DNA of 64,000 nucleotides, taken from Candidatus Binatia bacterium (GTDB taxonomy: Bacteria; Eisenbacteria; RBG-16-71-46; SZUA-252). A program made the translations under genes and the position numbers. Within the stretch, counting starts at the first letter, position 1. Every line of letters starts with the position of its first letter. The notes beneath the pieces were generated by a model. That model had not been told where the DNA came from, did no database searches, and worked only from the letters and a program-made list of their open reading frames with translations. Shown piece after piece: positions 40,724-61,547 of the stretch. Location: the NCBI GenBank assembly GCA_035631035.1, contig DASQJL010000042.1, positions 1 through 64,000 of the forward strand. The letters run 5' to 3'.

Positions 40724-42033
40724 TCGCGCGCTACAGCCGTCCCGCGATGGCGGGGCTCTTCGACGACCGGGCGCGCTACGCGACCTGGCTCGACGTCGAG
40801 CTGGCGGTGACGCGCGCGCTGGAGCGCCGCGGGGAAGCGCCCGCGGGCGCTTCGGCGCGGATCGCGGCGGCGGCGCGCATCGACCCCGCGCGGATCGACG
40901 AGCTGGAAGCCACGCTCCGCCACGACGTGATCGCCTTCCTGACGCAGGTGGGGGAGACCGCCGGCGCCGACGCGCGCTACCTGCACCTGGGGATGACCTC
41001 CTCCGATCTCGTGGACACCGCCCTCGCGCTCACGCTGGTGCGCGCGACCGACCTGCTCCTGCCCGAGGTGGACGCGCTCCGGGAGGAGACGCGCCGTCTC
41101 GCGCTCCGCCACAAGGACACGGTGATGGTGGGGCGCACGCACGGCATCCACGCCGAGCCGATCACGTTCGGGCTCAAGGCGCTCGTCTGGTACGAGGAGC
41201 TGGGGCGCGCGCGGGAACGGCTCCAGCGCGCGCGCGCGACCATCGCCGTGGGGAAGCTCTCCGGCGCGGTCGGCACGCTGGCCCACCTGACCCCCGCTCT
41301 CGAAGAGGAGGTGCTCGCCTCGCTGGGCCTCCGCCCCGAGCCGGCCGCCACCCAGGTCGTGCAGCGCGACCGCCACGCCGAATTGCTCCAGATGCTCGCC
41401 CTGCTCGGCGCGTCGCTCGAGAAGATCGCGATGGAGATCCGCCACCTGCAGCGCACCGAGGTGCTCGAGGTCGAGGAGCCCTTCCGCGAGGGGCAGAAGG
41501 GCTCGTCGGCGATGCCACACAAGCGGAACCCGGTGAACTGCGAGCGGGTGTGCGGCCTCGCGCGGATCCTGCGCGCGAACGCGCACGCGGCGACCGAGGA
41601 CGTGGCGCTCTGGCACGAGCGGGACATCAGCCACTCCAGCGTGGAGCGCGTGATTCTCCCCGACTCCTTCCTGCTCGCCGACTTCATGACGGCGCAGATG
41701 CGGGAGATCCTGGCCGGTCTGCACGTCTACCCCGACCGCATGCGCGCGAACCTCGAGGCGACGCGTGGACTGGTCTACTCTCAGCGAGCGCTCCTCGCCC
41801 TGACCGCGGCGGGGCTCTCGCGCGAGGACGCCTACGCACTGGTGCAGCGCCACGCGATGGCGGCGTGGAAGGAGCCGCCCGGCCTCCTGGCGAGACTGCA
41901 GGCCGATCCGGCCGCCACGAAGGCGCTCGATCCCGAGGCGCTGGCCCGCTGCTTCGAACCGGCCCACTTCCTGCGACACGTAAACCAAATCTTCGATCGC
42001 GTTCTGGGAGCTACCGTTGCAGCGGCTCGCTGA
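40720..42033 (+). CDS. purB: Adenylosuccinate lyase
   Basis: A 437-residue PurB of the fumarase/aspartase superfamily, starting at GTG 40720. Signature [16 protein letters not shown] is present, with [13 protein letters not shown] and [13 protein letters not shown]. It cleaves SAICAR to AICAR and adenylosuccinate to AMP. It begins a run of purine genes; the stop overlaps the purL start by 17 bases. Confidence 0.96.
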
Positions 42034-44383
42034 CGCCCCGACGATCCCCCTCCGGGAGGCCGATCCGGCCCGCCGGAAGGCGCTGCTCGAGGCCGAAGGG
42101 CTGCGGCTCACGGCCGACGAGGCGGCGCGCATGCTCGAGCTGTTGGGACGCGACCCCACGCGCGTCGAGGCGACCATCTTCGACACGATGTGGAGCGAGC
42201 ACTGCTCCTACAAGAGCAGCCGACGCGTGCTCCAGGCGCACCTTCCCACGAAGAGCCCCGACGTGATCCTGGGTCCGGGGGAGGACGCCGGCGTCGTGCG
42301 CTTCGGCGCCTGGAAGGGCGTCGAGTACGCGCTCGTGTTCGCGCACGAGAGCCACAACCATCCCTCCCAGGTCGTTCCGGTCGAGGGGGCCGCCACCGGC
42401 ATCGGCGGCATCGTGCGCGACGTGAACTGCATGGGCGCCGAGGTGATCGGCGTCATGGACGCGCTCCGCTTCGGCGATCCCGAAGGTCCGCGCGCCTCCT
42501 CGGTGCGCGAGATCGTGCGCGGCGTCGTGGACGGGATCTGGCAGTACGCGAACGCCCTGGGCGTCCCCAACCTCGGCGGGGATGTCTTTTTCTCGCCGCG
42601 CTTCGACGAGAACTGTCTCGTGAACGTCGTGGCGCTGGGGCTGGTGCGCGCCGACCGGATCGTGCGGAGCCGCGTGCCGGAGGCGGCCTCGCGCGAGCCG
42701 TACGTCTTCGTGCTGGTGGGGAAGCCGACCGACGAGACCGGGTTCGGTGGCGCCTCCTTCGCCTCGGCCATCCTCGAGGAGAACACCGAAGGGCAGCGGG
42801 GCCACGTGCAGGTCCCCGACCCCTTCCTGAAGCGGGTGCTCTTCGAAGCCAACCGGGCCGCGCTCGACTGGCTGGACGCGCAGGGCGCGGCCTTCGGCTT
42901 CAAGGACCTCGGCGCCGGGGGGATCGCGTGCGCCTCGAGCGAGCTGGCCGCGGCCGGCGGGTTCGGGATGGACGTCGACCTGGACCAGATCCCCACGGCG
43001 CCCGGCGACTATCCGGCCGAAGTGATCGCCTGCTCCGAGACGCAGGAGCGCTTCGCGCTCGTGGTCCCGGAGCGGCTCGCCGGGGGACTCCTCCGGATCT
43101 ACAACGAGGACTACGCGCTCCCGCTCGTCTATCACGGCGCGCGCGCCGCGGTGGCGGGACGGGTGCGCACCGACGGGCGCTACCGGATCCTGCGCGGCGG
43201 CCAGCCCGTGGCGGAGGCTCCGGTCGAGGTGATCACCGCGGGCATCGAGCACGACCGCCCGCGCCGTCCTCGCCACGCCGAGCCGCCCGAGACGCCGCTT
43301 CCGCCGGTGCGGGACCACGGCGCCCTCTTCCGCTCCATGATCGCGTCGCCGAACGTCGCCTCGCGCGCGCCGATCCTCCGCTATTACGACACCGAGGTGC
43401 AGGCGCGCGTCGTGATCCGCGCCGGCGAGGCCGACGCGTCGGTGCTCGCTCCGGTGCCCGGCGCGCCGCTCGGCTGCGCCCTCACCGTGGACGGCAATCC
43501 GTGGTACGTCGCGGCCGATCCCTACTGGGGGACGGCGCACGTCGTGCTGGAGGCGCTCCGGAATCTCGCCTGCGTCGGAGCGCGCCCCGTCGCGCTCACC
43601 GACTGTCTCAACTTCGGGAATCCCGAAGACCCCGAGGTCTTCGACGAGTTCGTGCGCAGCGTGCGCGGACTGGGCGACGCCGCGCGCGAGCTCGCGCCCG
43701 GGGGACCCTCGGGCCCGCCGGTGGCCGTGGTCTCGGGCAACGTCTCCTTCTACAACGAGTCGGCGACGGGGCGCTCCATCGAACCCTCGCCGATCGTGGC
43801 CGCGCTCGGCGTCCTGGAGGATTACAGCGTCGCCGTCTCGTCGGCCCTCCGCGCCCATCCGGGCGTGCTCGTGCTGAGCGGGCCGCGCGGCACGGCGACC
43901 GGCGCCTCGCAGCTCCGGCACCTCCTCACCGGCGAGACCGGCGGCGCGCTTCCCCCGCTCGATTTCGACCTCGAGCGGCGGCGGCTGAACGCCGTGCGCG
44001 AGGCGGTGCGGCGGGGGCTGGTCCGCTCCTGCCACGACATCTCCGAAGGCGGGCTGGCGGTCGCGGCGCTCGAGATGGCGCTCGGCGGCTTCGCTTCGGG
44101 CGGCTTCGGGCTCCAGATCCCGATCTCGGCGCTCGGCGACACGCCGGCCGAGATCCGGCTCTATGCCGAGGCGCCGGGATTCCTGATGGAGGCGTCGAAC
44201 GACGCGCTGGGCGCGCTGCTCGATCTCTTCGCCAAGCAGGGGGTGGACGCGACGATGATCGGCCGCACGCTTCCCGAGCCGAAGCTCCGCTTCATGGACG
44301 GCGGCACGACCCTGATCGAGGCGGACCTCGCCGAGCTGCGCGATCTCTACGGCGGCGCGCTCCGCCCCTACGTGGAGGCGTGA
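42017..44383 (+). CDS. purL: FGAM synthase subunit PurL (small form)
   Basis: A 788-residue PurL, starting at TTG 42017 with GGGAG upstream. Sequence hallmarks: MWSEHCSYKSSR, HESHNHPSQVVP (catalytic His), GAATGIGGIVRD, and two AIR-synthase-like halves (second from about 440). The length fits the small PurL of PurLQS complexes, which needs separate PurQ (glutaminase) and PurS (scaffold) subunits. It converts FGAR plus ammonia and ATP to FGAM. PurQ follows; a recognisable purS is absent. Confidence 0.96.
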   Translation: MQRLADAPTIPLREADPARRKALLEAEGLRLTADEAARMLELLGRDPTRVEATIFDTMWSEHCSYKSSRRVLQAHLPTKSPDVILGPGEDAGVVRFGAWKGVEYALVFAHESHNHPSQVVPVEGAATGIGGIVRDVNCMGAEVIGVMDALRFGDPEGPRASSVREIVRGVVDGIWQYANALGVPNLGGDVFFSPRFDENCLVNVVALGLVRADRIVRSRVPEAASREPYVFVLVGKPTDETGFGGASFASAILEENTEGQRGHVQVPDPFLKRVLFEANRAALDWLDAQGAAFGFKDLGAGGIACASSELAAAGGFGMDVDLDQIPTAPGDYPAEVIACSETQERFALVVPERLAGGLLRIYNEDYALPLVYHGARAAVAGRVRTDGRYRILRGGQPVAEAPVEVITAGIEHDRPRRPRHAEPPETPLPPVRDHGALFRSMIASPNVASRAPILRYYDTEVQARVVIRAGEADASVLAPVPGAPLGCALTVDGNPWYVAADPYWGTAHVVLEALRNLACVGARPVALTDCLNFGNPEDPEVFDEFVRSVRGLGDAARELAPGGPSGPPVAVVSGNVSFYNESATGRSIEPSPIVAALGVLEDYSVAVSSALRAHPGVLVLSGPRGTATGASQLRHLLTGETGGALPPLDFDLERRRLNAVREAVRRGLVRSCHDISEGGLAVAALEMALGGFASGGFGLQIPISALGDTPAEIRLYAEAPGFLMEASNDALGALLDLFAKQGVDATMIGRTLPEPKLRFMDGGTTLIEADLAELRDLYGGALRPYVEA

Positions 44384-44385
44384 CC

Positions 44386-45228
44386 ATGGCGCGCGCGGCG
44401 GTCATCCAGATTCCGGGCGTCAACTGCGAGTACGAGAGCGCTCGGGCCCTGGAGCGCGTCGGCATCGAAGCGTCGATCCTCCGCTTCAACGAGCCCGCGT
44501 CGGTGCTCTCCGAGTTCGACGCCTATCTCCTGCCGGGCGGCTTCGCGTTCCAGGACCGAATCCGCGCCGGGGCGGTCGCCGCCAAGCTCCCCGCCGTCGA
44601 GCGGATCGCGGCCGAATCGGAGCGGGGGAAGATCGTGGTCGGAATCTGCAACGGAGCGCAGGTGCTGGTCGAAGCGGGGCTCGTCCCCGGGATCCGTCCA
44701 GGCCGCGTGGAGCTCGCGCTCGCGCCCAACAAGGCGCCGCGGCGCCAGGGCTATCTCTGCCGCTGGATCTGGGTGCGGGCCGAAGAGGGTCCCGGGCGCG
44801 ACGCCTTCACCGCCGCGCTCGAGCCCGGCGCGGTGGTGCCGCTCCCGATGGCGCACGGCGAAGGGCGCTTCGAGACCGCCGACCCCGACGTGCGCCGCGC
44901 GATCGAGTCGGAGGGGCTCGCCCTTCTTCGCTACGTCGCGCCCGGCGGCGCGCCCGCGCGCGGGTGGCCGGACGATCCCAACGGGGCGATGCTCCACGCC
45001 GCCGGCATCACCAACCGGGGCGGAAACGTGCTGGCGTTCATGCCGCACCCCGAGCGGGCAAACGCCCTGAAGCACGTCCCGCTCGACCTGCCCGGCACCT
45101 GGGGCGAGGCGAGGCGCCGCGCGGTGGGAACCTGGGAGGCGCTGGAAGGGGACGGCCCGGGAGCCTTCCTCTTCCGCTCCCTCGCCGCGCGGCTGGGCGC
45201 CGCCACGCCGGCGGGAAGGTCGCGATGA
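44386..45228 (+). CDS. purQ: FGAM synthase glutaminase subunit PurQ
   Basis: A 280-residue class I glutamine amidotransferase starting at ATG 44386. Nucleophile Cys lies in GICNGAQVL; His/Glu in MPHPERAN. It supplies ammonia to PurL. It is somewhat longer than the about 225-residue PurQ of Bacillus, closer to archaeal-type PurQ, with insertions such as the WIWVRAEEGPG region. It overlaps the next gene in an ATGA. Confidence 0.95.
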   Translation: MARAAVIQIPGVNCEYESARALERVGIEASILRFNEPASVLSEFDAYLLPGGFAFQDRIRAGAVAAKLPAVERIAAESERGKIVVGICNGAQVLVEAGLVPGIRPGRVELALAPNKAPRRQGYLCRWIWVRAEEGPGRDAFTAALEPGAVVPLPMAHGEGRFETADPDVRRAIESEGLALLRYVAPGGAPARGWPDDPNGAMLHAAGITNRGGNVLAFMPHPERANALKHVPLDLPGTWGEARRRAVGTWEALEGDGPGAFLFRSLAARLGAATPAGRSR

Positions 45229-45845
45229 GCTCGGTTCTTCTCATACGGCTCAAGATCCCCGATCTCACCGCCTTGACCGCGCTCGACGCCGGGCGCGCGC
45301 TCCTTCCGGCGGGCCAGGAGCTCATGCGGCTGGTGCGGGAAGAGGTGGTCCTCTTCGAGCCGGCCGGGGAGTCGCGAGCTCCGGGATCGGCCGCCGCCCG
45401 GGAGCTGGACGCGAAACTCCTGAAAGCGGTGGAGACCAGCAACTTCTTCGTGAATCCAAACAAGGAGCGCTACCGGCTGATCGCCGCCTCCGAGCGGGGG
45501 GAGGCCTGGACGCCGCCCGAGGGGAGCTGGGGCATCCTGACGCGCCCGCGCGGAGATACGCGGGACGCCGGGCTCCTCGAGCGCCTGCAGCGGGAGCACC
45601 CGCTGGCGGGGCTTTCGGCGATCCGGCGGGGGCGCGTCTGGTGGCTCTGGACCCGCGGGGCCGACGGAAGCGCGGGCAGGGAAGGGGCGCTGGAGGCGCT
45701 GGGACCGGTGGAGCACGCCGGCCGGGGGCTCCTGGTGAATCCCCATTCCGAGTCGTGGCTCGTTCTTCCGGGTCCCATTCCCTGGACCCGCATCGAAACG
45801 TTTCTCGCGGCGCCGGAGCCGGCGGCCGCGGCCACCACCACCTGA
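45225..45845 (+). CDS. Uncharacterised purine-operon protein; candidate tandem PurS-like subunit
   Basis: A 206-residue soluble protein between purQ and purF, coupled to purQ by ATGA. Not recognised by name. It appears to be two diverged repeats, about 1-87 and 101-181. Each begins with a short beta strand (LLIRLKIPD; GILTRPRGD), passes a helix (LDAGRALLP; GLLERLQRE), a strand pair (REEVVLFEP; IRRGRVWWLW) and ends similarly (NFFVNPNKERYRLI; GLLVNPHSESWLVL). PurS has the same order, including an IRxGK-type strand and a terminal LLANPVIEDY-type segment, and works as a dimer; this gene may be a fused, diverged PurS pair. The identity is inference, not family-level recognition. Confidence 0.55.
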   Translation: MSSVLLIRLKIPDLTALTALDAGRALLPAGQELMRLVREEVVLFEPAGESRAPGSAAARELDAKLLKAVETSNFFVNPNKERYRLIAASERGEAWTPPEGSWGILTRPRGDTRDAGLLERLQREHPLAGLSAIRRGRVWWLWTRGADGSAGREGALEALGPVEHAGRGLLVNPHSESWLVLPGPIPWTRIETFLAAPEPAAAATTT

Positions 45846-45856
45846 GAGGAGCGATC

Positions 45857-47287
45857 GTGGACGAAGCCCAGGACGACCGGCTGCGGGAGGAATGCGGCGT
45901 GTTCGGCATCTGGGGCGCGGAGAACGCGGCGCGCCTCGCCTACGCCGGACTCTACGCCCTCCAGCATCGCGGGCAGGAGAGCGCCGGGATCGTGGCCAGC
46001 GACGGAAAGGAGTTCCACGCCCACCGCGGCCTGGGCCTCGTCTCCGACGTCTTCGCCGGAGGCGTCCTCGACCGTCTGACGGGCCACGTCGCGATCGGAC
46101 ACAACCGCTACTCCACCACGGGCCGGAACCACCCCCAGAACGCCCAGCCGCTCGTCGTGAACTACCGCGAGGGGGACCTCGCGATCGGCCACAACGGGAA
46201 TCTTGTGAACGCGCTCGCGCTGCGCCGCGAGATGGAAGAGCAGGGCTCCATCTTCCAGACCACCAGCGACACCGAGGTGATCCTCCACCTGATCGCGCGC
46301 TCCAAGGCGACGGAGCTGGAGCGGATGATCCCCGAGGCGCTGGCGCGCTGCCAGGGGGCCTACTCGCTCGTGATCCTCGCGGGCGAGACCCTCGTCGGCG
46401 TGCGCGATCCGCGCGGCTTCCGACCGCTCTGCCTGGGACGGCGCGGCACGGCGCACGTGCTCGCGAGCGAAACCTGCGCGCTCGACATCGTCGGCGCCGA
46501 CTTCGTCCGCGAGATCGATCCGGGGGAGATGGTGGTCATCGACCGGGACGGGGTGCGCTCGTTCCGGATCCTCGCGCCCGAGCCGCAGCGCGCCTGCGTC
46601 TTCGAGCTGATCTACTTCTCCCGCCCCGACAGCGTCGTCTTCGGCGTGAGCGTGGACTCGGTGCGGCGCAAGCTGGGACGCCGCCTGGCCGAGGAGCATC
46701 CCGCTGACGCCGACATCGTCATCTCGGTGCCGGACTCCAGCAACTCCGCCGCCCTGGGATTCGCCGAGGCGTCGGGTCTCCCCTTCGAGCTGGGCCTGAT
46801 CCGGAACCACTACGTCGGGCGCACCTTCATCGCCCCCGAGCAGATCACGCGCTCCTTCGGCGTGAACATGAAGTTCAACGCCGTGCGCCGCATCCTGGAC
46901 GGCAAGCGCGTCGTGGTCGTGGACGACTCGATCGTGCGCGGCACGACCAGCCGGAGCCTCGTCATGATGCTCCGCGCCGCCGGCGCGAAGGAGGTCCACT
47001 TCCGGGTCTCCAGCCCGCCGATCGGCTGGTCCTGCTACTACGGCATCGACACGCCGAACCGCCGCGAGCTGATCGCCTCGTCGCACACGATTGAGGAGAT
47101 CCGGAACTACCTGCACGTCGACTCCCTGGGCTATCTCTCCATGGAGGGGCTGCGCTCCTGCGTGGAGACGCCGGACGCGCACTGCTACGCCTGCTTCAAC
47201 GGCGACTACTCGGTGCGGTTCGGCGAGGAGATGGACAAGTTGGCGATGGAACGCCCGGCTGTGAAGAACGGCGGCGCCAAGGCGTAA
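45857..47287 (+). CDS. purF: Amidophosphoribosyltransferase
   Basis: A 476-residue PurF starting at GTG 45857, with AGAGGAG five bases upstream. The short propeptide ends before the catalytic Cys of EECGVFGIWG, so self-cleavage is expected. PRPP-binding loop: VVVVDDSIVRGTTSR. Zn/Fe-S-type ligands in the C-terminal part (SCVETPDAHCYACF) suggest a Bacillus-type PurF with a 4Fe-4S cluster. It makes phosphoribosylamine, the first committed purine step. Confidence 0.96.
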   Translation: MDEAQDDRLREECGVFGIWGAENAARLAYAGLYALQHRGQESAGIVASDGKEFHAHRGLGLVSDVFAGGVLDRLTGHVAIGHNRYSTTGRNHPQNAQPLVVNYREGDLAIGHNGNLVNALALRREMEEQGSIFQTTSDTEVILHLIARSKATELERMIPEALARCQGAYSLVILAGETLVGVRDPRGFRPLCLGRRGTAHVLASETCALDIVGADFVREIDPGEMVVIDRDGVRSFRILAPEPQRACVFELIYFSRPDSVVFGVSVDSVRRKLGRRLAEEHPADADIVISVPDSSNSAALGFAEASGLPFELGLIRNHYVGRTFIAPEQITRSFGVNMKFNAVRRILDGKRVVVVDDSIVRGTTSRSLVMMLRAAGAKEVHFRVSSPPIGWSCYYGIDTPNRRELIASSHTIEEIRNYLHVDSLGYLSMEGLRSCVETPDAHCYACFNGDYSVRFGEEMDKLAMERPAVKNGGAKA

Positions 47288-49881: not shown

Positions 49882-51354
49882 GTGTCCATTCAGGAAGTCC
49901 GCCGCGCGAAGCTCCAGGCGCTCCAGGAGCGCGGGATCCAGCCGTACGCCTACCGATACGACGCCACGCACCGCTCCGCCGCGATCCGCGCGCAGCACGC
50001 CGCCCTGGAAGCTTCCGGTGAGGCGGTGCGCGTCGCCGGGCGCCTGATGACGAAGCGGGGCCACGGCAAGGCCTCGTTCGCCCACATCAAGGACGAGGAC
50101 GGGCTTCTCCAGATCTATCTCCGCGAGGACGCGCTCGGCCCGGAGGCCTACGCCGAGGCGCTGGACTTCGACCTCGGCGACTGGGTCGGCATCGAGGGGT
50201 CGGTGTTCCGGACCAAGACGGGCGAGATCACGGTCAAGGCCGCGGCGGTGACGCTCCTCTCCAAGTCGCTCCACCCGCTTCCGGAGAAGTGGCACGGGCT
50301 GACCGACGTCGAGATCCGCTACCGCCAGCGCTACACCGATCTCGTCGTGAACGACGAGGTCCGCGCCGTGTTCAAGGCGCGCGCCCGCCTGATCCGCTCG
50401 ATCCGGGAATTTCTCGACGCCCGGGGGTATCTGGAGGTGGAGACGCCCGTGCTGCAGCCGCTCTACGGCGGGGCCGCGGCGCGCCCCTTCACGACGCATC
50501 ACAACGCGCTCGACATGCCGCTCTACCTGCGGATCGCGGATGAGCTGTATCTCAAGCGCCTCATCGTCGGGGGCTTCGAGCGCGTCTACGAGATCGCGAA
50601 GGACTTCCGGAACGAGGGGATCGACCGGAGCCACAACCCCGAGTTCACCATGCTCGAGTTCTACCAGGCCTATGCGGACTACGAGACGATGATGGAAGTG
50701 ACGCAGGACCTGATCGTGCACGCGGCGCGGACCCTCCACGGTGGCACCCTGGTGCCGCACGAGGGGAGGACGATCGATTTCGCGCCTCCCTGGAACCGGC
50801 TCCGCTACAAGGAGGCCGCGGCGAAGGCGCTCGGCGTCGCCGCCCTCCCGGAAGGGGAGGAGGATCTCCGCGCGCTGGCCGGGCGCGCCGGCTTGAAGCT
50901 CGATCCCGCATTCGGGTGGGGGCGGATCCTGGACGAGGTGGTCTCGGAGAAGGTGCAGCCCGGCCTGGAGCGGCCGACGTTCCTTCTCGACCATCCCAGG
51001 GACGTGTCGCCGCTCGCCAAGACGCGCCGCGGCGACCCCACCGTCGTGGAGCGCTTCGAGCTGATCGTCGCGGGGATGGAGGTCGCGAACAGCTTTTCGG
51101 AGCAGAACGACCCGCTGGAGCAGCGCCGCGCCTTCGAGGCGCAGATGCGCCAGCGGGAGCGCGGCGACGACGAGGCGCAGATGCTGGACGAGGACTACCT
51201 GCGCGCCCTGGAGCTGGGCATGCCGCCGACGGGGGGCGTGGGGATCGGGGTCGACCGGCTGATCATGCTGCTCGCCGACCAGCGGAGCATTCGCGACGTG
51301 ATCCTCTTCCCGCAGATGCGCCCCGAAGAACGCGCCGGCGAGGAGGGCGCCTAG
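49882..51354 (+). CDS. lysS: Lysyl-tRNA synthetase, class II
   Basis: A 490-residue LysRS starting at GTG 49882, behind GGGAG. The N-terminal OB domain spans about 45-145 (VRVAGRLMTKRGHGKASF); class II motifs include motif 2 FRNEGIDRSHNPEFTMLEFY and motif 3 GVGIGVDRLIML. It charges tRNA(Lys). It heads a likely run with LolC/E and LolD genes. Confidence 0.96.
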   Translation: MSIQEVRRAKLQALQERGIQPYAYRYDATHRSAAIRAQHAALEASGEAVRVAGRLMTKRGHGKASFAHIKDEDGLLQIYLREDALGPEAYAEALDFDLGDWVGIEGSVFRTKTGEITVKAAAVTLLSKSLHPLPEKWHGLTDVEIRYRQRYTDLVVNDEVRAVFKARARLIRSIREFLDARGYLEVETPVLQPLYGGAAARPFTTHHNALDMPLYLRIADELYLKRLIVGGFERVYEIAKDFRNEGIDRSHNPEFTMLEFYQAYADYETMMEVTQDLIVHAARTLHGGTLVPHEGRTIDFAPPWNRLRYKEAAAKALGVAALPEGEEDLRALAGRAGLKLDPAFGWGRILDEVVSEKVQPGLERPTFLLDHPRDVSPLAKTRRGDPTVVERFELIVAGMEVANSFSEQNDPLEQRRAFEAQMRQRERGDDEAQMLDEDYLRALELGMPPTGGVGIGVDRLIMLLADQRSIRDVILFPQMRPEERAGEEGA

Positions 51355-51388
51355 CGCTCCGCCCGGAGCGGCGGCCCGGCACCCACGG

Positions 51389-52612
51389 ATGGGCTACGTC
51401 TGGATCATCGCCTCGCGCTACCTGCGCTCGAAGCGGCGGCTCAACTTCATCACGCTCGTGAGCCTGCTGGCCATCGGCGGCGTCTTCGTTGGCACCGCGG
51501 CCCTGACGATCGTCCTCTCGGTCATGAACGGGTTCGAGGACCAGGTGCAGCGGCGGATCGCGGGCACGAACGCGCACATCGCCGTCCTCTCCGGCGACGA
51601 CCGGCCGATGCGGGAAAATCCCGATCTCGTCCGCGCGATCCGGAAGACGCTGCCCACGGCCCAGGTCGCGCCGTTCGTCTACGGCAAGGTGATGGTGGCC
51701 TCGCGCCACGGGATCGACGGCATGGTGCTGAAGGGGGTGGACCCGCCCGCCGAGGCGCGCGTGACCGACATCCTCGCGCACCTGACGCCCACCCGCGACG
51801 CGTTCGAGGGGGGCGATCTGCCGGGCATCGCGCTCGGCCGCGAGCTGGCCTCGCGCCTCCGCGTGGCGACCGGCGACGTGATCCTGATCAGCCTGCCCAC
51901 GGAGGAGCCGGGAGGGGTTCTGGGCGGCGTGCCGCGCACGACGCGGCTCCGCGTGACCTCGATCTTCGAGTCGGGGCTCTACGAGTACGACTCCTCCTTC
52001 GGCGTGGTCCTCGCGCCGACGGCCGCGTCCTTCTTCCGCCTCGACGGCGAGATCACCGGCTACCAGCTTCGCATTCCCGACATGTTCCGAGCGGCCGAGG
52101 ACTCGCGGGCGCTGGAGCAGGCGCTCGGGCCCTCCTACCGGGTGACGAACTGGATCGACCTCAACCGGAATCTGTTCGCCTGGATGCGCATCGAGAAGGC
52201 GGTGATGTTCACGATCCTGATCCTCATCGTGATCGTGGCGGCCGTGAACATCGTCTCGAGCCTGGTCATGCTCGTTCTTGAGAAACGCCGCGACATCGGT
52301 GTTCTACGCACCATGGGGGTGACTCCGAGGGGCATCCTCCAGATCTTCCTGCTCCAGGGGACCCTGGTGGGGCTGTGCGGCACGGCGCTCGGGCTGGGCG
52401 CGGGCGTTGCCGTCTCGTATGCGCTGGGCCGCTGGAAGCTGCTCCATCTTCCCGGGGAGATCTACTTCATCGACACCCTGCCCGTGAAAATGGAATGGCA
52501 CGACATCGTCTTCGTGGCGGTGGCGGCGACGGTGACCTGCTTCCTCGCGAGCCTCTATCCCGCGTGGCAGGCCGCGCGGCTTGCCCCGGTCCAGACGATC
52601 CGGTATGAATGA
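51389..52612 (+). CDS. lolC: Lipoprotein-releasing permease LolC/LolE family
   Basis: A 407-residue ABC permease with four membrane helices: one near 20-45 (ITLVSLLAIGGVFVGTAALT), then a large periplasmic domain, and three after about 265. The MacB/FtsX-type core includes IVSSLVMLVLEKRRDIGVLR. Paired with the downstream ATPase it extracts mature lipoproteins from the inner membrane for transfer to LolA. Only one permease gene is present, so LolF-like homodimeric use is possible. It overlaps lolD by 8 bases. Confidence 0.9.
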   Translation: MGYVWIIASRYLRSKRRLNFITLVSLLAIGGVFVGTAALTIVLSVMNGFEDQVQRRIAGTNAHIAVLSGDDRPMRENPDLVRAIRKTLPTAQVAPFVYGKVMVASRHGIDGMVLKGVDPPAEARVTDILAHLTPTRDAFEGGDLPGIALGRELASRLRVATGDVILISLPTEEPGGVLGGVPRTTRLRVTSIFESGLYEYDSSFGVVLAPTAASFFRLDGEITGYQLRIPDMFRAAEDSRALEQALGPSYRVTNWIDLNRNLFAWMRIEKAVMFTILILIVIVAAVNIVSSLVMLVLEKRRDIGVLRTMGVTPRGILQIFLLQGTLVGLCGTALGLGAGVAVSYALGRWKLLHLPGEIYFIDTLPVKMEWHDIVFVAVAATVTCFLASLYPAWQAARLAPVQTIRYE

Positions 52613-53324
52613 GCCGGGTGAGGGCGAAGCACCCCTGCTCGAAGCGGAAGGCCTGGCCAAGACTTACGACGAAGGGATCGCGCCGGTCGTGGTGTTGCGC
52701 GACGTCTCCCTCCGGGTGATGCCGGGGGAGATGGTCGCGGTGGTGGGAGCCTCGGGCTCCGGAAAGTCGACGCTGCTCCACCTGCTGGGGGGGCTCGACC
52801 GGCCCACCGCCGGCACCGTGCGGGTCGCAGGCGTCGCGATGTCGTCCCTCGACGAGGAGGGGCGCTCGAAGCTACGCGGCCGGTCGGTGGGGTTCGTGTT
52901 CCAGTTCCACCAGCTCCTCCCCGAATTCACCGCGCTGGAGAACGCGATGATGCCGGGGTGGATCGCGGGAAGACCGGCGCCCCAGGTGCGGAAACGGGCC
53001 GAGAGCCTGCTTCGGGACCTCGGCCTGGGCGGACGGCTGGAGCACAAGCCCTCCGAGCTTTCGGGCGGGGAGCAGCAGCGCGTGGCCGTGGCGCGAGCCT
53101 TGCATCTGCAACCGGCAGTGCTGCTTGCGGACGAGCCGACCGGCAATCTGGACCGTCCGGCCACCATGGCGCTGCTGGAGATTCTGGAGCGGTACCGGCA
53201 GGAAGAATCCCAAGCCATTGTGATCGCGACGCATAATGCGGAAGTGGCCGGTGCGGCGGGACGGGTCCTGAGCCTACAGGATGGACGACTCCAGCCGATG
53301 AAAGTGATGCCGACCCGCATCTAA
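52605..53324 (+). CDS. lolD: Lipoprotein-releasing ATPase LolD
   Basis: A 239-residue ABC ATPase starting at ATG 52605, overlapping the permease gene. Walker A GASGSGKST, Q-loop VFQFHQLLPEFTALEN (LolD-like), signature LSGGEQQRVAVARAL, Walker B VLLADEPTGNLD. It supplies energy for lipoprotein release. The stop is 33 bases ahead of mcsA. Confidence 0.93.
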   Translation: MNEPGEGEAPLLEAEGLAKTYDEGIAPVVVLRDVSLRVMPGEMVAVVGASGSGKSTLLHLLGGLDRPTAGTVRVAGVAMSSLDEEGRSKLRGRSVGFVFQFHQLLPEFTALENAMMPGWIAGRPAPQVRKRAESLLRDLGLGGRLEHKPSELSGGEQQRVAVARALHLQPAVLLADEPTGNLDRPATMALLEILERYRQEESQAIVIATHNAEVAGAAGRVLSLQDGRLQPMKVMPTRI

Positions 53325-53357
53325 ACGGCGAGGGACCGTCAGGAGGGAAGAGCGGCC

Positions 53358-53888
53358 ATGCAGTGCCAGCTGTGCGGGAAGCGACCCGCGATCGTCCATT
53401 TCACGGAAATCGTGAACAACAAGAAGTCGGAATACCACGTCTGCGAGAAGTGCGCCGAAGAGCGGGGCTACAGCGTGCCCCTCCTGAAAACAAAGTTTTC
53501 AGTCGGCGATCTCCTCGCGGGCATGGTGGACCAGACCGGCGTCGGCGAGGAGGCCAAGGTCGGGCGCGTGCAGTGTCCGCGCTGCGGCATGGTCTATTCG
53601 AGTTTCCGGGAGACGGGCCGCCTCGGCTGCTCCGAGTGCTACGTGACGTTCCGCACCCAGCTCCGGCCGCTCCTGCGCCGGATCCACGGAAGCACGAAGC
53701 ACGTCGGCAAGGCGCCGCGGCGGGACGACGCGCGCACGAACCTGCGCCACGAGATCCAGCGCCTCCACGAAGAGATGCAACGCGCGATCGAGCGGGAGGA
53801 ATTCGAGACCGCCGCCAGCCTCCGCGACCAGATCCGCGCCATGGAAGGGCAGGAGACGACGGAGACGACCGGGGAGGGGGCGGCGTGA
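53358..53888 (+). CDS. mcsA: McsA-like zinc protein, activator of protein arginine kinase
   Basis: A 176-residue protein starting at ATG 53358 behind AGGAGGG. It has the McsA pattern: CQLC and CEKC, then CPRC and CSEC zinc pairs, and a C-terminal UVR motif (MQRAIEREEFETAASLRDQI). McsA stimulates the arginine kinase McsB. It is followed by mcsB (GTGA overlap) and clpC, as in Firmicutes, but no ctsR precedes it; lolD does. Confidence 0.92.
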   Translation: MQCQLCGKRPAIVHFTEIVNNKKSEYHVCEKCAEERGYSVPLLKTKFSVGDLLAGMVDQTGVGEEAKVGRVQCPRCGMVYSSFRETGRLGCSECYVTFRTQLRPLLRRIHGSTKHVGKAPRRDDARTNLRHEIQRLHEEMQRAIEREEFETAASLRDQIRAMEGQETTETTGEGAA

Positions 53889-54961
53889 AGCTGACCACGC
53901 TGGCGCGATCGCTGGGCCGCTGGCTGGACGGGACGGGGCCGTCGTCGGACATCGTCCTCTCCACGCGCGTCCGGCTCGCGCGCAACATGAAGGACGTCCC
54001 CTTCACCCACCGGGCGCGCGAAGAGCAGCTCGCGATGGTCTACTCCAGCGCGATCACCGCCGTGCGCAAGACGCCGCCGCTCGCGCACTCGTCGGCGTTC
54101 CAGATGCGCGATCTGACGCCGCTCGACCGGCAGTTCCTGGTCGAGCGCCATCTGATCTCGAACGATCTGGCCGACAACGGGAAGCTTCGCGGGCTGCTCG
54201 TGATGCCCGACGAGAGCGTGGCCGTGATGGTGAACGAAGAGGACCATCTTCGCCTGCAGGCGCTGGCGTCGGGGTTCCAGCTCCGCTCGGCCTGGGAGGC
54301 GGTCAACGCCATCGATGATGAATTGGCGCAGGACCTCGACTATGCTTTCAGCGACGAGCTCGGCTATTTGACGGCGTGCCCGACGAATGCGGGCACCGGC
54401 ATGCGCGCCTCGGTGCTGATCCACCTGCCCTCGCTCGTCCTGACCAAGCAGATCGGCAAAGTGCTCCAGGGCATCACGCAGGTGGGTCTCGCCGTGCGCG
54501 GCTTCTACGGCGAGGGCTCGCAGATCATGGGGAACTTCTTCCAGATCTCGAACCAGACGACGCTGGGTCAGAGCGAGCGGGAGACGATCGACAGTCTGGA
54601 GCGGGTGACGCGACAGATCATCGACTACGAGCAGCGGGCGCGGGACGAGCTGGTCAAGGACGCCCGCGTGCAGATCGAAGACAAGATCTGGAGGGCCTAC
54701 GGGACCCTGCGGCACAGCCGCGTGATCTCGTCCCAGGAAGTGATCAACCTCTCCTCGGCGGTGCGCTTCGGCGTGGCGCTGAACATGGAGGGGCTGACCG
54801 ACGTGCCGACATTGAACGAAATGTTGATCCGCACCCAGCCGGCGCACCTGCAGCTCTTCACGGGGCGCGAGATGGAGCAGCGCGAACGGAACGTGGTCCG
54901 CGCCGACTACGTCCGCCACCTCCTCGAAGGCGGCGGGGACGATGCGGTGCGCTCGAATTAG
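53885..54961 (+). CDS. mcsB: Protein arginine kinase McsB
   Basis: A 358-residue phosphagen-kinase-fold enzyme starting at GTG 53885 (GTGA). Seen: LSTRVRLARNMKDVPF near the N-terminus, VNEEDHLRLQ, CPTNAGTGMRASV (catalytic Cys) and RGFYGEGSQI. It phosphorylates protein arginines, marking proteins for ClpC-ClpP degradation in Bacillus. Its length matches Bacillus McsB. Confidence 0.95.
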   Translation: MKLTTLARSLGRWLDGTGPSSDIVLSTRVRLARNMKDVPFTHRAREEQLAMVYSSAITAVRKTPPLAHSSAFQMRDLTPLDRQFLVERHLISNDLADNGKLRGLLVMPDESVAVMVNEEDHLRLQALASGFQLRSAWEAVNAIDDELAQDLDYAFSDELGYLTACPTNAGTGMRASVLIHLPSLVLTKQIGKVLQGITQVGLAVRGFYGEGSQIMGNFFQISNQTTLGQSERETIDSLERVTRQIIDYEQRARDELVKDARVQIEDKIWRAYGTLRHSRVISSQEVINLSSAVRFGVALNMEGLTDVPTLNEMLIRTQPAHLQLFTGREMEQRERNVVRADYVRHLLEGGGDDAVRSN

Positions 54962-54985
54962 GGCGAGGCGGGAGGCTCGCAGCTG

Positions 54986-57403
54986 ATGCATGACAAGTTC
55001 ACGGAACGCGTGCGCAAGGTGATGTACCTCGCCCGCGAGGAGGCGGCCCGGCTCCAGCACGACTACATCGGGACCGAGCACCTTCTCCTGGGCGTCATCC
55101 GCGAAGGAGAGGGAATCGCCGCCACGGTGCTGAACAATCTGGGCCTCGACCTGGACGCCATCCGCCAGGCGGTCGAGAGCATGGTCGCCTCCACCGGAGG
55201 CACGCTCACGATCGGCGAGATCCCGTTCACGCCGCGGGCGAAGCGGGTGCTCGAGCTGTCGGTGGACGAAGCGCGCCAGCTCGGCCACAACTACGTCGGC
55301 ACCGAGCATCTCCTCCTGGGGCTGATCCGGGAAGGGGAGGGCGTCGCCGCGCGCGTCCTGCTCGAGCTGGGCGTGGACCGGAAGAAGGTGCGCGAGGAGA
55401 CCCTGAAGCTCCTGGGCGGCACGCCGTCGGCGTCGCAGCCGGAGCGCGAGGGGAAGGTCGAGACGCCGGCGCTGAACCAGTTCGGCCGCGACCTGACCGC
55501 CCTGGCCCGGGAGAACAAGCTCGACCCCATCATCGGGCGCGAGTCCGAGATCGAGCGCGTCATCCAGGTGCTCTCCCGCCGGAAGAAGAACAACCCGATC
55601 CTGATCGGGGAGCCCGGCGTGGGGAAGACCGCCATCGCCGAGGGGCTGGCCGAGCGGATCGTCGAGAACCGGGTCCCGGAGACCCTCAAGGACAAGCGGA
55701 TCGTTACGTTGGACCTCGCGGCGGTGGTCGCGGGTACCAAGTATCGCGGCCAGTTCGAAGAGCGCCTCAAGGCGGTCATGAACGAGATCCGGGAATCCAA
55801 GGACACCATCATCTTCATCGACGAGCTCCATACCATCGTCGGGGCGGGCGGCGCCGAGGGCGCCATCGACGCCTCGAACATGCTGAAGCCGGCGCTGGCG
55901 CGCGGCGAGCTCCAGTGCATCGGGGCCACCACGCTCGACGAGTTCCGGAAGTACATCGAGAAGGACGGGGCCCTGGAGCGGCGCTTCCAGCCGATCATGG
56001 TCGACCCCCCCTCGGTGGACGAGACGATCCAGATCATCATGGGGCTGCGCGACAAGTACGAGGCGCACCACGGCTCCAAGTACACGGACGACGCCATCGT
56101 CGCGGCGGTGAAGCTGGCCGACCGCTACATCAACGACCGCTTCCTCCCGGACAAGGCCATCGACGTGATCGACGAGGCGGGCGCCTGCGCGCGCCTCTCG
56201 ATGTCGGCCATTCCCTCCGAGGTGCGCGAGCTGGAGAAGCAGGTCGAGGAAGTGGCCAAGGAGAAGGAAGCCTCGATCCAGCAGCAGGAGTTCGAGAAGG
56301 CGGCCCGCTTCCGCGACAAGGAGAAGGAGCTCCGCGCGAAGCTCCGCGAGCACAAGAAGAACTGGAACGAGATCAAGCACGAGACCGAGGTCAAGGTGGA
56401 CGCCGACCTCATCGCGCAGGTCATCTCGCGCATGACCGGCATCCCGATCTCGCGCATCGAGGAAAAGGAATCGGAGAAGCTCCTCCGCATGGAGGAGGAG
56501 ATCCGGAAGTCGATCGTCGGGCAGGACGAGGCCGTCGCGGCCGTCTCCCGCGCCATCCGGCGGAACCGGGCCGGGCTCAGGGATCCGCGGCGTCCCATCG
56601 GCTCCTTCATCTTCCTCGGCCCGACCGGCGTGGGGAAGACCGAGCTGGCGCGCGTGCTCGCGCGGTTCCTCTTCGACGACCCGGACGCGCTCATCCGGAT
56701 CGACATGTCGGAGTACATGGAGAAGTTCTCGGTCTCGCGGCTGATCGGCGCCCCGCCGGGGTACGTGGGCCACGAGGAGGGCGGGCAGCTGACGGAGAAG
56801 GTCCGCCGGAAGCCCTACTCGGTGGTGCTCCTCGACGAGATCGAGAAGGCCCATCCCGACGTGTTCAACATCCTGCTCCAAGTGCTGGACGACGGGCAGC
56901 TCACCGACAGCCTGCGGCGCCGCGTCGATTTCAAGAACACGGTGCTGATCATGACGTCGAACCTCGGAGCCCGGCAGATCAAGGGGCAGCGCGCGCTGGG
57001 CTTCGGCGAGCGTACCGAGGACTCGACCTACGACAACATGAAGCGGACGATCCTCGAGGAGCTGAAGCGCAACTTCAATCCGGAGTTCCTGAACCGGATC
57101 GACGAGGCGATCGTCTTCCACCCGCTGTCGCGCCCGCAGATGGAGCAGATCACCGGCATCCTGCTGCAGCAGGTGTCCGAGCGGCTGCGCCAGAGCGGCG
57201 TCAAGGTCACGTTCGAGCCCTCGGTCGTCGACCTCCTCATCGAGAAGGGGTTCGACGCCGCGCTGGGAGCCCGTCCGCTCAAGCGCGCCATCCAGAAGCT
57301 CATCGAAGACCCCCTCTCCGAGCACGTGCTGCGCGGCCAGCTGAAAGAAGGCAGCGACGTGCTCATCTCCCGTGCCGGTGACGAGCTGACCTTTGCGTCC
57401 TGA
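54986..57403 (+). CDS. clpC: AAA+ unfoldase ClpC
   Basis: An 805-residue Hsp100 with a double Clp-N domain (1-150), D1 Walker [12 protein letters not shown] and D2 Walker [12 protein letters not shown], and a UVR-like coiled middle region ([20 protein letters not shown]) that is diagnostic of ClpC against ClpA/B. It unfolds substrates, including arginine-phosphorylated ones, for ClpP. The stop overlaps the bamA start by one base. Confidence 0.95.
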
Positions 57404-59841
57404 TGCCTGACGCCATTCGAGCCGCGGCGCCCCGAAGGGGGGGCCGCGGTCTCGCGGCCCGCGCCGCGATCCCGTGCTTCGCGGCGCTTTTCCTGACGCT
57501 CGGACCCGGGACGCCCGGCGCGAGCGCCCAGATCGCCAACCCGCCCTCGTCCTCGCCGTTCGACACCACGTCGGCGCCCGCGACGCCGCTGCCCGAGCCT
57601 CCCGCGGCTCCGGCGCCGTCGCCCTCGGGTCCGGCGGTCGTCCACTCGGTCCGGGCCTCAGGCTTCGCCAACGTGGACTCCACCGTCATTCTCCGGACCT
57701 TCGGATTCAAGGCGGGCGATCCCTACGATCCCGCGGGCGTGCGCGCGGGCGTGCGGCGGCTCTTCGCGACCGGCCTCTTCACTGACGTGGACGTCCAGGA
57801 TGCCTCCACCCCCGCGGGGGTGGATCTGAACGTGCAGGTCAAGGAGCGGCTGCGGATCCAGGGCGTGCAGTTCAGCGGCGCGAAGAAGATCGAAGAGAAG
57901 ACGCTGAAGACCAAGATCACGGTGGCGACGGGGCAGCTGGTCGATCCGGGCACGCTGGAGCTCGACGCCCGGAAGATCCAGGACGCCTATGCCGACGAGG
58001 GCTACGGCCACGCGCGGGTCCACACGATCACGCGCCCCGCCGGCCCCGGCGCGGTCACGGTGATCTTCCAGGTCGAGGAGGGGGAGAAGGAGAAGGTGCG
58101 CGGCATCACCGTGCACGGCGCGAACACCCTCTCGGCCGAGGGCATCCGCAAGTCGATGAAGAGCCGGACGCCGGCCTTTCTGAAGAGCGGGACCTACAAG
58201 CCCTCCCAGATCGAAGACGACGAGACCAAGATCCGGCTGTACATGCGCAGCCGCGGATTCCGCGACGCCGACGTGGATTCGATCCGCGCGATCGAGACCC
58301 CCGACGGCAAGGGCGTCCTGCTCCACGTCTACGTGCGCGAGGGACCCCGCTACCGGTTCGGGAACGTGGCGTGGACGGGAAACAGCGCCGTGCCGCGCGC
58401 AGCGCTCGACATCGCGACGATGATCCGCCCCGGCACGCCGTACAACGAGAGCCAGGTCCAGAAGACGCTGGAGCAGGCCTACTCGCTCTACCAGGAACAG
58501 GGGTACCTCTTCCTCTCGATCGATCCCAAGTTCACCGACCGCGACTCGGTGGTGGACGTCGACTTCCAGGTGCAGGAGGGGAACCGCTCGCGCGTGGCCG
58601 ACCTGCGGATCGTGGGGAACACGCGCACCAAGGAGAACGTCATCCGCCGCGAGGCCTCGGTCCGCCCGGGGGACGTCTTCCGGCGCTCGGCCCTGATCCG
58701 CACCCAGCGGGACATCTTCGGCCTGGGCTATTTCCAGGACGTCAACGTGGACTACGAGCCGACCGGCGACAGCGCGGACATCCGGCTGACCCTGAAGGTC
58801 CAGGAGAAGCAGACGGGAACGGCCAGCGCCGGAGCGGGGTACTCCAGCCAGACCGGCGTGACCGGCTTCCTGGAGCTGGGACACAACAACCTGTTCGGCA
58901 ACGGCCAGAGCATCTCCGTCCGGCTCGAGCGGGGGAGCCACACCGGCAACATCGAGCTCTCCTTCACCGAGCCCTGGTTCCGGGACACCCCCCTCTCCCT
59001 GGGGGCCGACATCTTCAACACGCAGCGGGACCTCGACTTCTACGACCGGAAGGACGTGGGCGGAGGGGTCCGGCTGGGGCGGCCGCTGCCGTGGCCCGAC
59101 TACACCCGGGGCGTGATCGCTTACGATCTTCGGGACGTGACGCTGTCGAACATCCGGGCCGTCAGCCCGGGCGAGCCGTCGAACCTGGCCGAGCTTCGAA
59201 CGACCAAGTGGCCGCGCCGCGTGAGCAGCGTGACCCTGACCTTCACCCGCAACAGCACCGACAACCCCTTCTATCCGACGCGCGGCTCCCGGCTGAGCTG
59301 GGGAAACGAGATCGCGGGGGGCCTCTTCGGAGGGGTGGAGCACTACACGAAGGAGACCGTGGAGCTGCGGAATTTCAGCAAGCTGCAATCGCCGTTCACG
59401 TTGATGCTGCGGGGGAAAGCCGGCTTCCTGGCCGGGTCGACCGTGCCCGACTACGAACGCTTCCGGCTGGGCGGGACGACGGCGGACTACCTGCGGGGCT
59501 ATCCGGACTACTACGTGGTGCCGCGCGCGAACATCACGCGCGATCCGCTGACGGGGAGGGTCCTGGACCGCTACCCGGGCGGGCGCACGATGCTGATCCT
59601 GACCAGCGAGCTGCAGTTTCCGATCGCCGATCCGCTCCATGGCCTGCTCTTCTTCGAAGCGGGGAACACCTGGAATTCGACCCGCGACCTGGATCTCGGG
59701 GATCTCCGGAAGTCGGCGGGCGTGGGCGTGCGGCTCGAAGTGCCCGCTCTGGGTCGCGTCGGATTCGACGTCGGCTACGGATTCGACCGGGAAGAAGGGG
59801 GTCAGTGGGAGACCCACTTCCAGTTAGGCAACACCTTCTGA
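57403..59841 (+). CDS. bamA: Outer-membrane assembly factor BamA
   Basis: An 812-residue Omp85 protein starting at ATG 57403. Signal peptide (about 20-43), a Pro/Ala-rich lead (44-80), five POTRA domains (about 81-440; first VVHSVRASGFANVDS), then a 16-strand barrel with a conserved LRGYPDYYV loop and terminal QLGNTF ending in Phe. It inserts barrel proteins into the outer membrane. The operon continues with skp and lipid A genes. Confidence 0.95.
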   Translation: MPDAIRAAAPRRGGRGLAARAAIPCFAALFLTLGPGTPGASAQIANPPSSSPFDTTSAPATPLPEPPAAPAPSPSGPAVVHSVRASGFANVDSTVILRTFGFKAGDPYDPAGVRAGVRRLFATGLFTDVDVQDASTPAGVDLNVQVKERLRIQGVQFSGAKKIEEKTLKTKITVATGQLVDPGTLELDARKIQDAYADEGYGHARVHTITRPAGPGAVTVIFQVEEGEKEKVRGITVHGANTLSAEGIRKSMKSRTPAFLKSGTYKPSQIEDDETKIRLYMRSRGFRDADVDSIRAIETPDGKGVLLHVYVREGPRYRFGNVAWTGNSAVPRAALDIATMIRPGTPYNESQVQKTLEQAYSLYQEQGYLFLSIDPKFTDRDSVVDVDFQVQEGNRSRVADLRIVGNTRTKENVIRREASVRPGDVFRRSALIRTQRDIFGLGYFQDVNVDYEPTGDSADIRLTLKVQEKQTGTASAGAGYSSQTGVTGFLELGHNNLFGNGQSISVRLERGSHTGNIELSFTEPWFRDTPLSLGADIFNTQRDLDFYDRKDVGGGVRLGRPLPWPDYTRGVIAYDLRDVTLSNIRAVSPGEPSNLAELRTTKWPRRVSSVTLTFTRNSTDNPFYPTRGSRLSWGNEIAGGLFGGVEHYTKETVELRNFSKLQSPFTLMLRGKAGFLAGSTVPDYERFRLGGTTADYLRGYPDYYVVPRANITRDPLTGRVLDRYPGGRTMLILTSELQFPIADPLHGLLFFEAGNTWNSTRDLDLGDLRKSAGVGVRLEVPALGRVGFDVGYGFDREEGGQWETHFQLGNTF

Positions 59842-59857
59842 GACAAGAGGTTGGGAT

Positions 59858-60433
59858 ATGACTCGACATCCGGTTAGGGCTGGGGTACTCTGGGTCGCCT
59901 TGTGCGCCTCCCTCCTCGCGGCCCCCGTGGTCCGCGCGGCGGATTTGAAGCTCGGCTTCATCGATTCCGACCGGATCTTCCAGCAATACGAGAAGACCAA
60001 GACGGTCCAGGAGGACTTCAACCGCGAGGTCGCGGACATCTCCAAGACCGCCCGGGAGAAGAAGACGGAGATCGACGACCTGCAGCGCAAGCTGGATCAG
60101 CAGAGCCCGATGCTGAGCGAGGCGAAGCGGGACGAGCAGAACAAGCAGCTCCAGAGCAAGATCGGCGAGTACGAAGCGTTCGTTCAAGCCAACTGGGGGC
60201 CGAACGGCAGGATCTCCAAGCTGAACGAAGAGTACCTGAAGCCGATCATCGATCGCGTTCACAACATCGTGACCGTGATCGGTACCGACGAGGGGTATTC
60301 GCTGATCCTCGACGCGGCCGACGGCAACGTCGTGTTTGGAGACAAGTCGTACGACCTGACCGACCGCGTCTTGAGCTCGCTAAGGACGGAGGATGAGAGC
60401 GGAACCCCGTACCGCGGACGCAGCAGCCAGTAG
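59858..60433 (+). CDS. skp: Skp/OmpH periplasmic chaperone
   Basis: A 191-residue OmpH-family protein with signal peptide (about 8-27, ending VVRAAD), strand LKLGFIDSDRIFQQY, and long coiled helices (to about 110) forming the tentacle of the trimer. It escorts unfolded outer-membrane proteins. The conserved core ends near 175. It overlaps the lpxD start by 41 bases. Confidence 0.9.
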   Translation: MTRHPVRAGVLWVALCASLLAAPVVRAADLKLGFIDSDRIFQQYEKTKTVQEDFNREVADISKTAREKKTEIDDLQRKLDQQSPMLSEAKRDEQNKQLQSKIGEYEAFVQANWGPNGRISKLNEEYLKPIIDRVHNIVTVIGTDEGYSLILDAADGNVVFGDKSYDLTDRVLSSLRTEDESGTPYRGRSSQ

Positions 60434-61547
60434 CGGGGTCGACGCCCCGGTCCTCGCGGCCGATGGCCGCCCGGACCAGGGGATTGCCTCCCATTCCGGC
60501 AGACCCTCGATCCGGGCCACGCTCGACGTGCTGGCCCAGGTGGTCGGCGGCGTCGTCATCGGCGACGGCTCGACCGAGATCACCGGCGTCGCCGGGATCC
60601 GCGAGGCCCAGGAAGGGGATCTCACCTTTCTCGCCAATCCCCGCTACGAGCCCTATCTGGGGCAGACGCGCGCTTCCGCCGTCATCGTGGCCGAGGATCA
60701 TCGCGACCTCGGCAAGCCGCTCATCCAGAACGCCCATCCCTATCTCGCCTTCCTGAAGGCGGTCCGCTTCTTCCAGGGGGAGGAGGCCCGCCCCGAGCCG
60801 GGCATCCATCCCTCCGCCGTCCTCGCGGCCGACGCCTGCGTCGACGCCACCGCCTCGATCGGTCCCCACGTCGTGATCGAATCGGGCGCGCGCGTCGGCC
60901 CGCTGGCCTGGGTCGGACCCGGCTGCTACATCGGCGCCGGCGCTTCGATCGGCTCCGAGACGCGGCTCCATCCCAACGTGACCCTCCTCGAGGAATGCGT
61001 GCTGGGCGCGCGCGTGATCGTCCACTCCGGCGCCGTCATCGGCAGCGACGGCTTCGGCTTCGTGCGCGACGGCGACATCTATCGGAAGCTTCCCCAGGTC
61101 GGGAACGTGGTCGTCGAGGACGACGTGGAGCTGGGCGCCTGCGTCACGATCGACCGCGCCACCATGGGCACGACCCGGATCGGACAGGGGAGCAAGATCG
61201 ACAACCTGGTTCAGATCGCGCACAACGTGCAGATCGGCCGGAACTGCATCATCGTGGCCCAGGTCGGCATCTCGGGAAGCACTTCCATCGGCGAGAACGT
61301 GGTGCTGGCGGGGCAGGTCGGCATCGTGGGCCACATCGAGATCGGCGCCGGCGCGCAGGTGGGCGCCAAGTCGGGCGTCTCCAAGTCGGTGAAGCCGGGG
61401 GAGCGGATCTTCGGCTACCCGGCGCTTCCGGTGGGGCAGGCGAAGCGGATCGAAGCCTCCCTCCGGCACCTACCCGAGCTGATCCAGACCGTCCGCGCGC
61501 TCAGGCGCCGGATCGAGGAGCTCGAGGGGCAGAAGCCTTCCTCGTGA
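60393..61547 (+). CDS. lpxD: UDP-3-O-acylglucosamine N-acyltransferase
   Basis: A 384-residue LpxD. The left-handed beta-helix of hexapeptide repeats runs from about 130 to 325, with catalytic His in QIAHNVQIG. The N-terminal domain (about 40-120) carries VVGGVVIGDGSTEITG. It transfers the second acyl chain in lipid A synthesis. The start at ATG 60393 adds about 35 poorly conserved residues and may be slightly upstream of the real one. The stop overlaps lpxC/fabZ (GTGA). Confidence 0.94.
   Translation: MRAEPRTADAAASSGVDAPVLAADGRPDQGIASHSGRPSIRATLDVLAQVVGGVVIGDGSTEITGVAGIREAQEGDLTFLANPRYEPYLGQTRASAVIVAEDHRDLGKPLIQNAHPYLAFLKAVRFFQGEEARPEPGIHPSAVLAADACVDATASIGPHVVIESGARVGPLAWVGPGCYIGAGASIGSETRLHPNVTLLEECVLGARVIVHSGAVIGSDGFGFVRDGDIYRKLPQVGNVVVEDDVELGACVTIDRATMGTTRIGQGSKIDNLVQIAHNVQIGRNCIIVAQVGISGSTSIGENVVLAGQVGIVGHIEIGAGAQVGAKSGVSKSVKPGERIFGYPALPVGQAKRIEASLRHLPELIQTVRALRRRIEELEGQKPSS

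Follow-up and report, generated by a model that had tools for sequence, protein, structure and literature searches.

The window, that is, the whole stretch of 64,000 nucleotides analyzed here, comes from a Candidatus Eisenbacteria genome and carries a purine operon on the + strand in the order purB-purL-purQ-X-purF. The purB gene (40747–42033) encodes adenylosuccinate lyase, as judged from its own sequence and from homologues found in the same order in relatives. The purL gene (42017–44383) encodes the small form of PurL, with FGAR-AT linker and AIRS domains and matches above cut-off to TIGR01736 and PRK01213, and its length of 788 aa is counted from a TTG at 42017, the start codon being uncertain. 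The purQ gene (44386–45228) encodes a separate glutaminase of 280 aa that matches TIGR01737 above cut-off, while purF (45857–47287) encodes amidophosphoribosyltransferase with class II glutaminase and phosphoribosyltransferase domains. Between the latter two lies the gene here called X (45225–45845, + strand; 206 aa plus stop), which is recognized as a gene by its open reading frame and translation, its conserved family and its structural model, and for which, as a candidate single-chain tandem PurS, we propose the name PurSS. The ATG of X overlaps the purQ stop codon in a shared ATGA, and its GC content by codon position (0.74/0.56/0.87) is typical for coding sequence here. A scan for promoters and terminators found none, and there was no Rfam match.

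FGAM synthase catalyzes the fourth step of purine synthesis. Where PurL is small, the enzyme depends on the homodimeric PurS in addition to PurL and PurQ (PMC3261824, PMC3815217). A preliminary description of the locus had read PurL as the small form and PurQ as separate, both of which agree with the family matches above, and had found no recognizable PurS. This absence extends to the whole genome, in which PF02700 has no match, a profile of 37 PurS sequences has no match at E<=10, and no other PurS was found (3.35 Mb, 97% complete). The genome holds a single PurL, and the N-terminal domain of large PurL (FGAR-AT_N, PF18076) has no match in this genome or in the phylum. The window protein X by itself matched nothing in Pfam, NCBIfam or the PDB sequences and did not reach the PF02700 cut-off, and a profile built from X of the phylum gave only chance matches, none of them PurS, against PDB sequences.

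The AlphaFold model of X, based on a 21-sequence alignment, has a pLDDT of 93.4 and a pTM of 0.88 and shows strand-helix-strand-helix-strand twice. Repeat 1 (residues 1–96; 45225–45512, + strand) is beta-alpha-beta-alpha-beta according to its own model, the PDB fold search and hhalign, and repeat 2 (residues 97–206; 45513–45842, + strand) has the same elements plus a C-terminal helix according to the whole-chain model and hhalign, as anticipated from the PurS-like strand order that had been read in each half. When repeat 1 was modelled alone (pLDDT 90), ranks 1–11 of the PDB fold search were all PurS, from six organisms, with probabilities of 0.82–1.00, and the next match stood at 0.16. The search with the whole chain placed large PurL/FGAR-AT of human and Salmonella on top, with ten large PurL/FGAR-AT matches within ranks 1–11 (probability 0.92–1.00, E 4e-3 to 3e-2; Foldseek E-values are modest, all those against the PDB being >1e-3), and no unrelated fold appeared at comparable probability. 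The matched part of these long chains is probably the N-terminal PurS-like domain, because repeat 1 matches PurS and chains of PurM and small PurL are absent from the list. Over the two queries covered, half 1 alone and the whole chain, the searches thus led to PurS and to large PurL, and the predicted fold is that of PurS rather than the unrelated fold that would speak against a tandem PurS. In a viral structure library, the best matches were fragments of herpesvirus ORF75, a relative of FGAR-AT, and these added nothing new.

Sequence profiles agree with the fold. With 57 X sequences and 37 PurS sequences as input, hhalign aligned repeat 1 with PurS at a probability of 92% (P 7e-7) and repeat 2 with PurS at 91% (P 1e-6), and repeat 1 with repeat 2 at 96% (P 6e-9). 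This last comparison scored 45.6, whereas none of 150 column shuffles exceeded 13.5. The similarity of the two halves noted in the preliminary description is therefore beyond chance. Using only members from outside the phylum, the probabilities were 95% (repeat 1 and PurS), 96% (repeat 2 and PurS) and 97% (repeat 1 and repeat 2). Overall, the halves matched PurS at probabilities of 91–96% (P 1e-6 to 3e-9), and hhalign scores were 35 to 60 where the best of 150 column shuffles for these pairs reached 17, while reversed profiles gave nothing. The suggested comparison of each half with PurS was thus borne out for both halves by hhalign and for half 1 by structure search. Against 177,635 PDB sequences, the profile of outside members placed PurS of T. 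maritima (3d54_B, 1vq3) first and had PurS as five of its six matches; the half-1 profile also placed T. maritima PurS first, and the repeat-2 profile had it second as a weak match (E 0.13). The homology needed the wider X family to show, as the phylum profile matched a small PurS alignment of eight sequences only weakly (P 0.014) and the match became strong once 37 PurS sequences and 22 outside members were used. By fold and by sequence profile, X is a member of the PurS superfamily.

The matching ends that had been seen in the two halves correspond to NFFVNPNKERYRLI at the end of repeat 1 (residues 73–86; 45441–45482, + strand), in which N77 is invariant in family alignments, and to GLLVNPHSESWLVL at the end of repeat 2 (residues 168–181; 45726–45767, + strand), and both take the position of the PurS motif LLANPVIEDY. 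In the second motif, G168, L169, L170, N172, P173 and H174 vary little or not at all within the phylum. The IRRGR strand described for the second half is also present (residues 133–137; 45621–45635, + strand), within the second strand of repeat 2, predicted at residues 130–144, and at the position of VRxGK in PurS. The motifs of X are conserved across 57 sequences, with a consistent difference between the halves, namely FxNPNKE or FxNPNKH in repeat 1 and GLLxNPHxQ in repeat 2. Such asymmetry is impossible for a homodimer. One may guess at a division of labor, with one half facing PurL and the other PurQ.

Homologues of X were found in 35 of 47 Eisenbacteria genomes examined by protein search and then by profiles from relatives, and every one of the 35 copies adjoins purQ and/or purF, usually in the order purL-purQ-X-purF. 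A single-protein search of named contigs returned four close relatives, three of them from Candidatus Eisenbacteria. The fourth (L089, 56% identity) lies in a genome deposited as Candidatus Latescibacterota, which probably reflects no more than a difference in labelling. Among the 12 genomes of the phylum without X, seven lack a detectable PurQ, as expected if the purine cluster is missing from the assembly, and in the other five PurL itself includes a fused tandem PurS domain. In one genome, the end of PurQ runs directly into X in one open frame (G040:C68, 4953–6308, - strand; L080), and this arrangement, seen in that genome only, is suggestive of direct contact between the two proteins, although it may be an assembly or sequence error rather than a natural fusion.

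Strong matches to X (E about 1e-11 or better) occur in 58 of 385 genomes, comprising the 35 Eisenbacteria and 23 outside genomes from 16 families; a weak outside match in G218 (E 0.0046 over 44 positions), probably a chance one, was left out. Outside copies adjoin purQ and/or purF in 20 of 23 cases, 19 with purQ directly upstream and one at a contig edge with purF directly downstream. In the three remaining outside genomes X lies away from purQ; all three encode a small PurL elsewhere and lack PurS. These unlinked copies are L099 and L101 (G327 and G190), with riboflavin-synthesis-like genes among their neighbors, and L117 (G150).

A separate PurS match was found in none of the 58 genomes with X and in 221 of the 327 others, an exclusion with a Fisher P of 3e-25 overall and 1e-11 outside the phylum alone, values that overstate independence, since genomes share ancestry. 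X occurs with small PurL and a separate PurQ and without another PurS, and it replaces the separate PurS. Of the X members tried against PF02700, only L109 (G112; 32.2 bits) and L116 (G253; 25.4 bits) pass the Pfam cut-off of 22.2, and these intermediate sequences thus also connect X to the PurS superfamily. Neither was reported by the six-frame PF02700 search of genomes, the first filter of which can miss a tandem PurS, so the exclusion holds for separate PurS genes only.

The reading of X as a tandem PurS is supported by these results, from which binding to PurL and PurQ and an effect on activity are predicted. We consider it highly probable that X is a natural single-chain PurS dimer that serves a split FGAM synthase as its third subunit, where it would bridge PurL and PurQ at 1:1:1. 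In the proposed mechanism, two diverged tandem repeats would form the PurS homodimer as one chain, and X would hold the FGAM synthetase (small PurL) and the glutaminase (PurQ) together, coupling them in such a way that the ammonia released by PurQ could reach PurL. In PurLQS this role falls to two PurS chains, and in large PurL to the N-terminal domain, whose contact with the synthetase buries 1033 square angstroms and that with the glutaminase 1919 (PMC3815217). The expected complex would contain one PurL, one PurQ and one X.

Other explanations of the locus and its history have to be weighed. Since the window protein has no direct family match, X might be an unrelated operon gene whose two NP motifs are similar to one another and to PurS by coincidence, but the fold and profile searches with their controls contradict this and the motifs are conserved across 57 sequences, which makes it scarcely credible. 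X could also have the fold and origin of PurS and yet, instead of replacing PurS stoichiometrically, regulate the enzymes of the purine operon or help them assemble, as its strong sequence divergence from PurS would allow. This we regard as very unlikely, because PurS is required with small PurL (PMC3261824, PMC3815217), these genomes offer no other candidate, and X is kept even where it is unlinked from purQ.

A further alternative concerns history rather than function: X may be a PurS-like N-terminal domain that gene fission released from a medium or large PurL and that works alike. X is indeed collinear over both repeats with the fused PurS tandem of five Eisenbacteria (probability 52–63%, P about 1e-4), and large PurL came first in the whole-chain structure search. 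However, in genomes with X the small PurL is of the standard kind and mostly 44–53% identical to that of the window, compared with about 28% for the fused kind, free PurS is a closer match to the halves of X (P 1e-6 to 3e-9) than the fused domain is to X, and X has no FGAR-AT_N match; fission is thus rather unlikely. Because X matches free PurS better than the fused tandem, sequence comparison weakly favors a fusion of two purS genes over fission of a fused PurL. More tentatively, the single-chain PurS dimer encoded by X and the PurS-like part of medium and large PurL might both go back to one duplicated single-chain PurS, which in the latter was joined to PurL afterwards. X would then be a living intermediate on the way from split to fused enzyme, each half being already specialized for one partner, PurL or PurQ; we think this possible, with the balance somewhat against it.

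X resembles free PurS (PF02700, TIGR00302; PurLQS FGAM synthase; 3d54, 1gtd, 1twj, 2yx5, 2cuw, 1vq3) in the fold of its halves and the order of elements, in where its VRxGK and NP motifs lie, in its operon partners and in occurring only with small PurL and PurQ. Free PurS is a homodimer of about 80 aa with a single repeat, whereas X has two diverged repeats per chain and asymmetric halves, and the window protein falls below detection by PurS models. The N-terminal domain of large PurL/FGAR-AT (PF18076; 1t3t, 4r7g, 9nb3) likewise has two PurS-like repeats in a one-chain pseudo-dimer and is the equivalent of the PurS dimer (PMC3815217, PMC10927867), but X is a separate gene, unjoined to PurL and PurQ. 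Known forms also include the mdPurL of methanogens, with an N-terminal PurS-like region of about 200 extra residues and mostly no purS (PMC3261824). Like X, mdPurL and the five fused PurL of Eisenbacteria replace free PurS by a one-chain PurS-like region and leave PurQ separate; in these proteins the region stands at the start of PurL, while X is free and encoded after purQ. A synthetic "PurSS" sequence was once built for alignment with the N-terminus of large PurL (PMC3815217), and it has two PurS units in one chain as X does, an artificial device of which X is the natural counterpart. Among papers searchable under open licence, none was found that describes a free, naturally occurring tandem PurS. 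The split PurS, PurL and PurQ and the large PurL are already known, and the form of X is intermediate between the separate-subunit and the fused versions.

As a natural single-chain PurS dimer, a form previously known only inside fused PurL, X would account for the apparent absence of PurS across a phylum and in many outside lineages. It would also give a name and a function to a family mostly undetected by Pfam and NCBIfam and correct pathway calls in which the fourth purine step of these bacteria would seem defective. Whether duplication preceded fusion, and what the asymmetry contributes to holding PurL and PurQ, become directly testable.

The fused PurL of the five Eisenbacteria genomes without X exceeds 960 aa over the frames that were read and has the PurS tandem at its front, and in one of the five, which is cut by a contig end, the second repeat alone is visible. 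The loci are L038, L039, L040, L121, L122 and L123 (G017, G024, G025, G027, G033 and G025, respectively). In these genomes PurL is about 28% identical to that of the window and is accompanied by a separate divergent PurQ, with two such sets in G025, and this looks like a replacement of the whole enzyme. Weak PurS matches in G017, G024 and G025 were rejected as free PurS, the domains being fused to PurL of at least 1000 aa.

Split FGAM synthase is the usual form in Gram-positives. Downstream of the operon in the window (49882–63725), lysS-like and clpC-like genes, a Lol-type ABC exporter, an outer-membrane assembly protein, a Skp-like protein and lpxD were recognized as look-alikes by sequence. 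The window lineage looks like an outer-membrane lineage that carries a split FGAM synthase.
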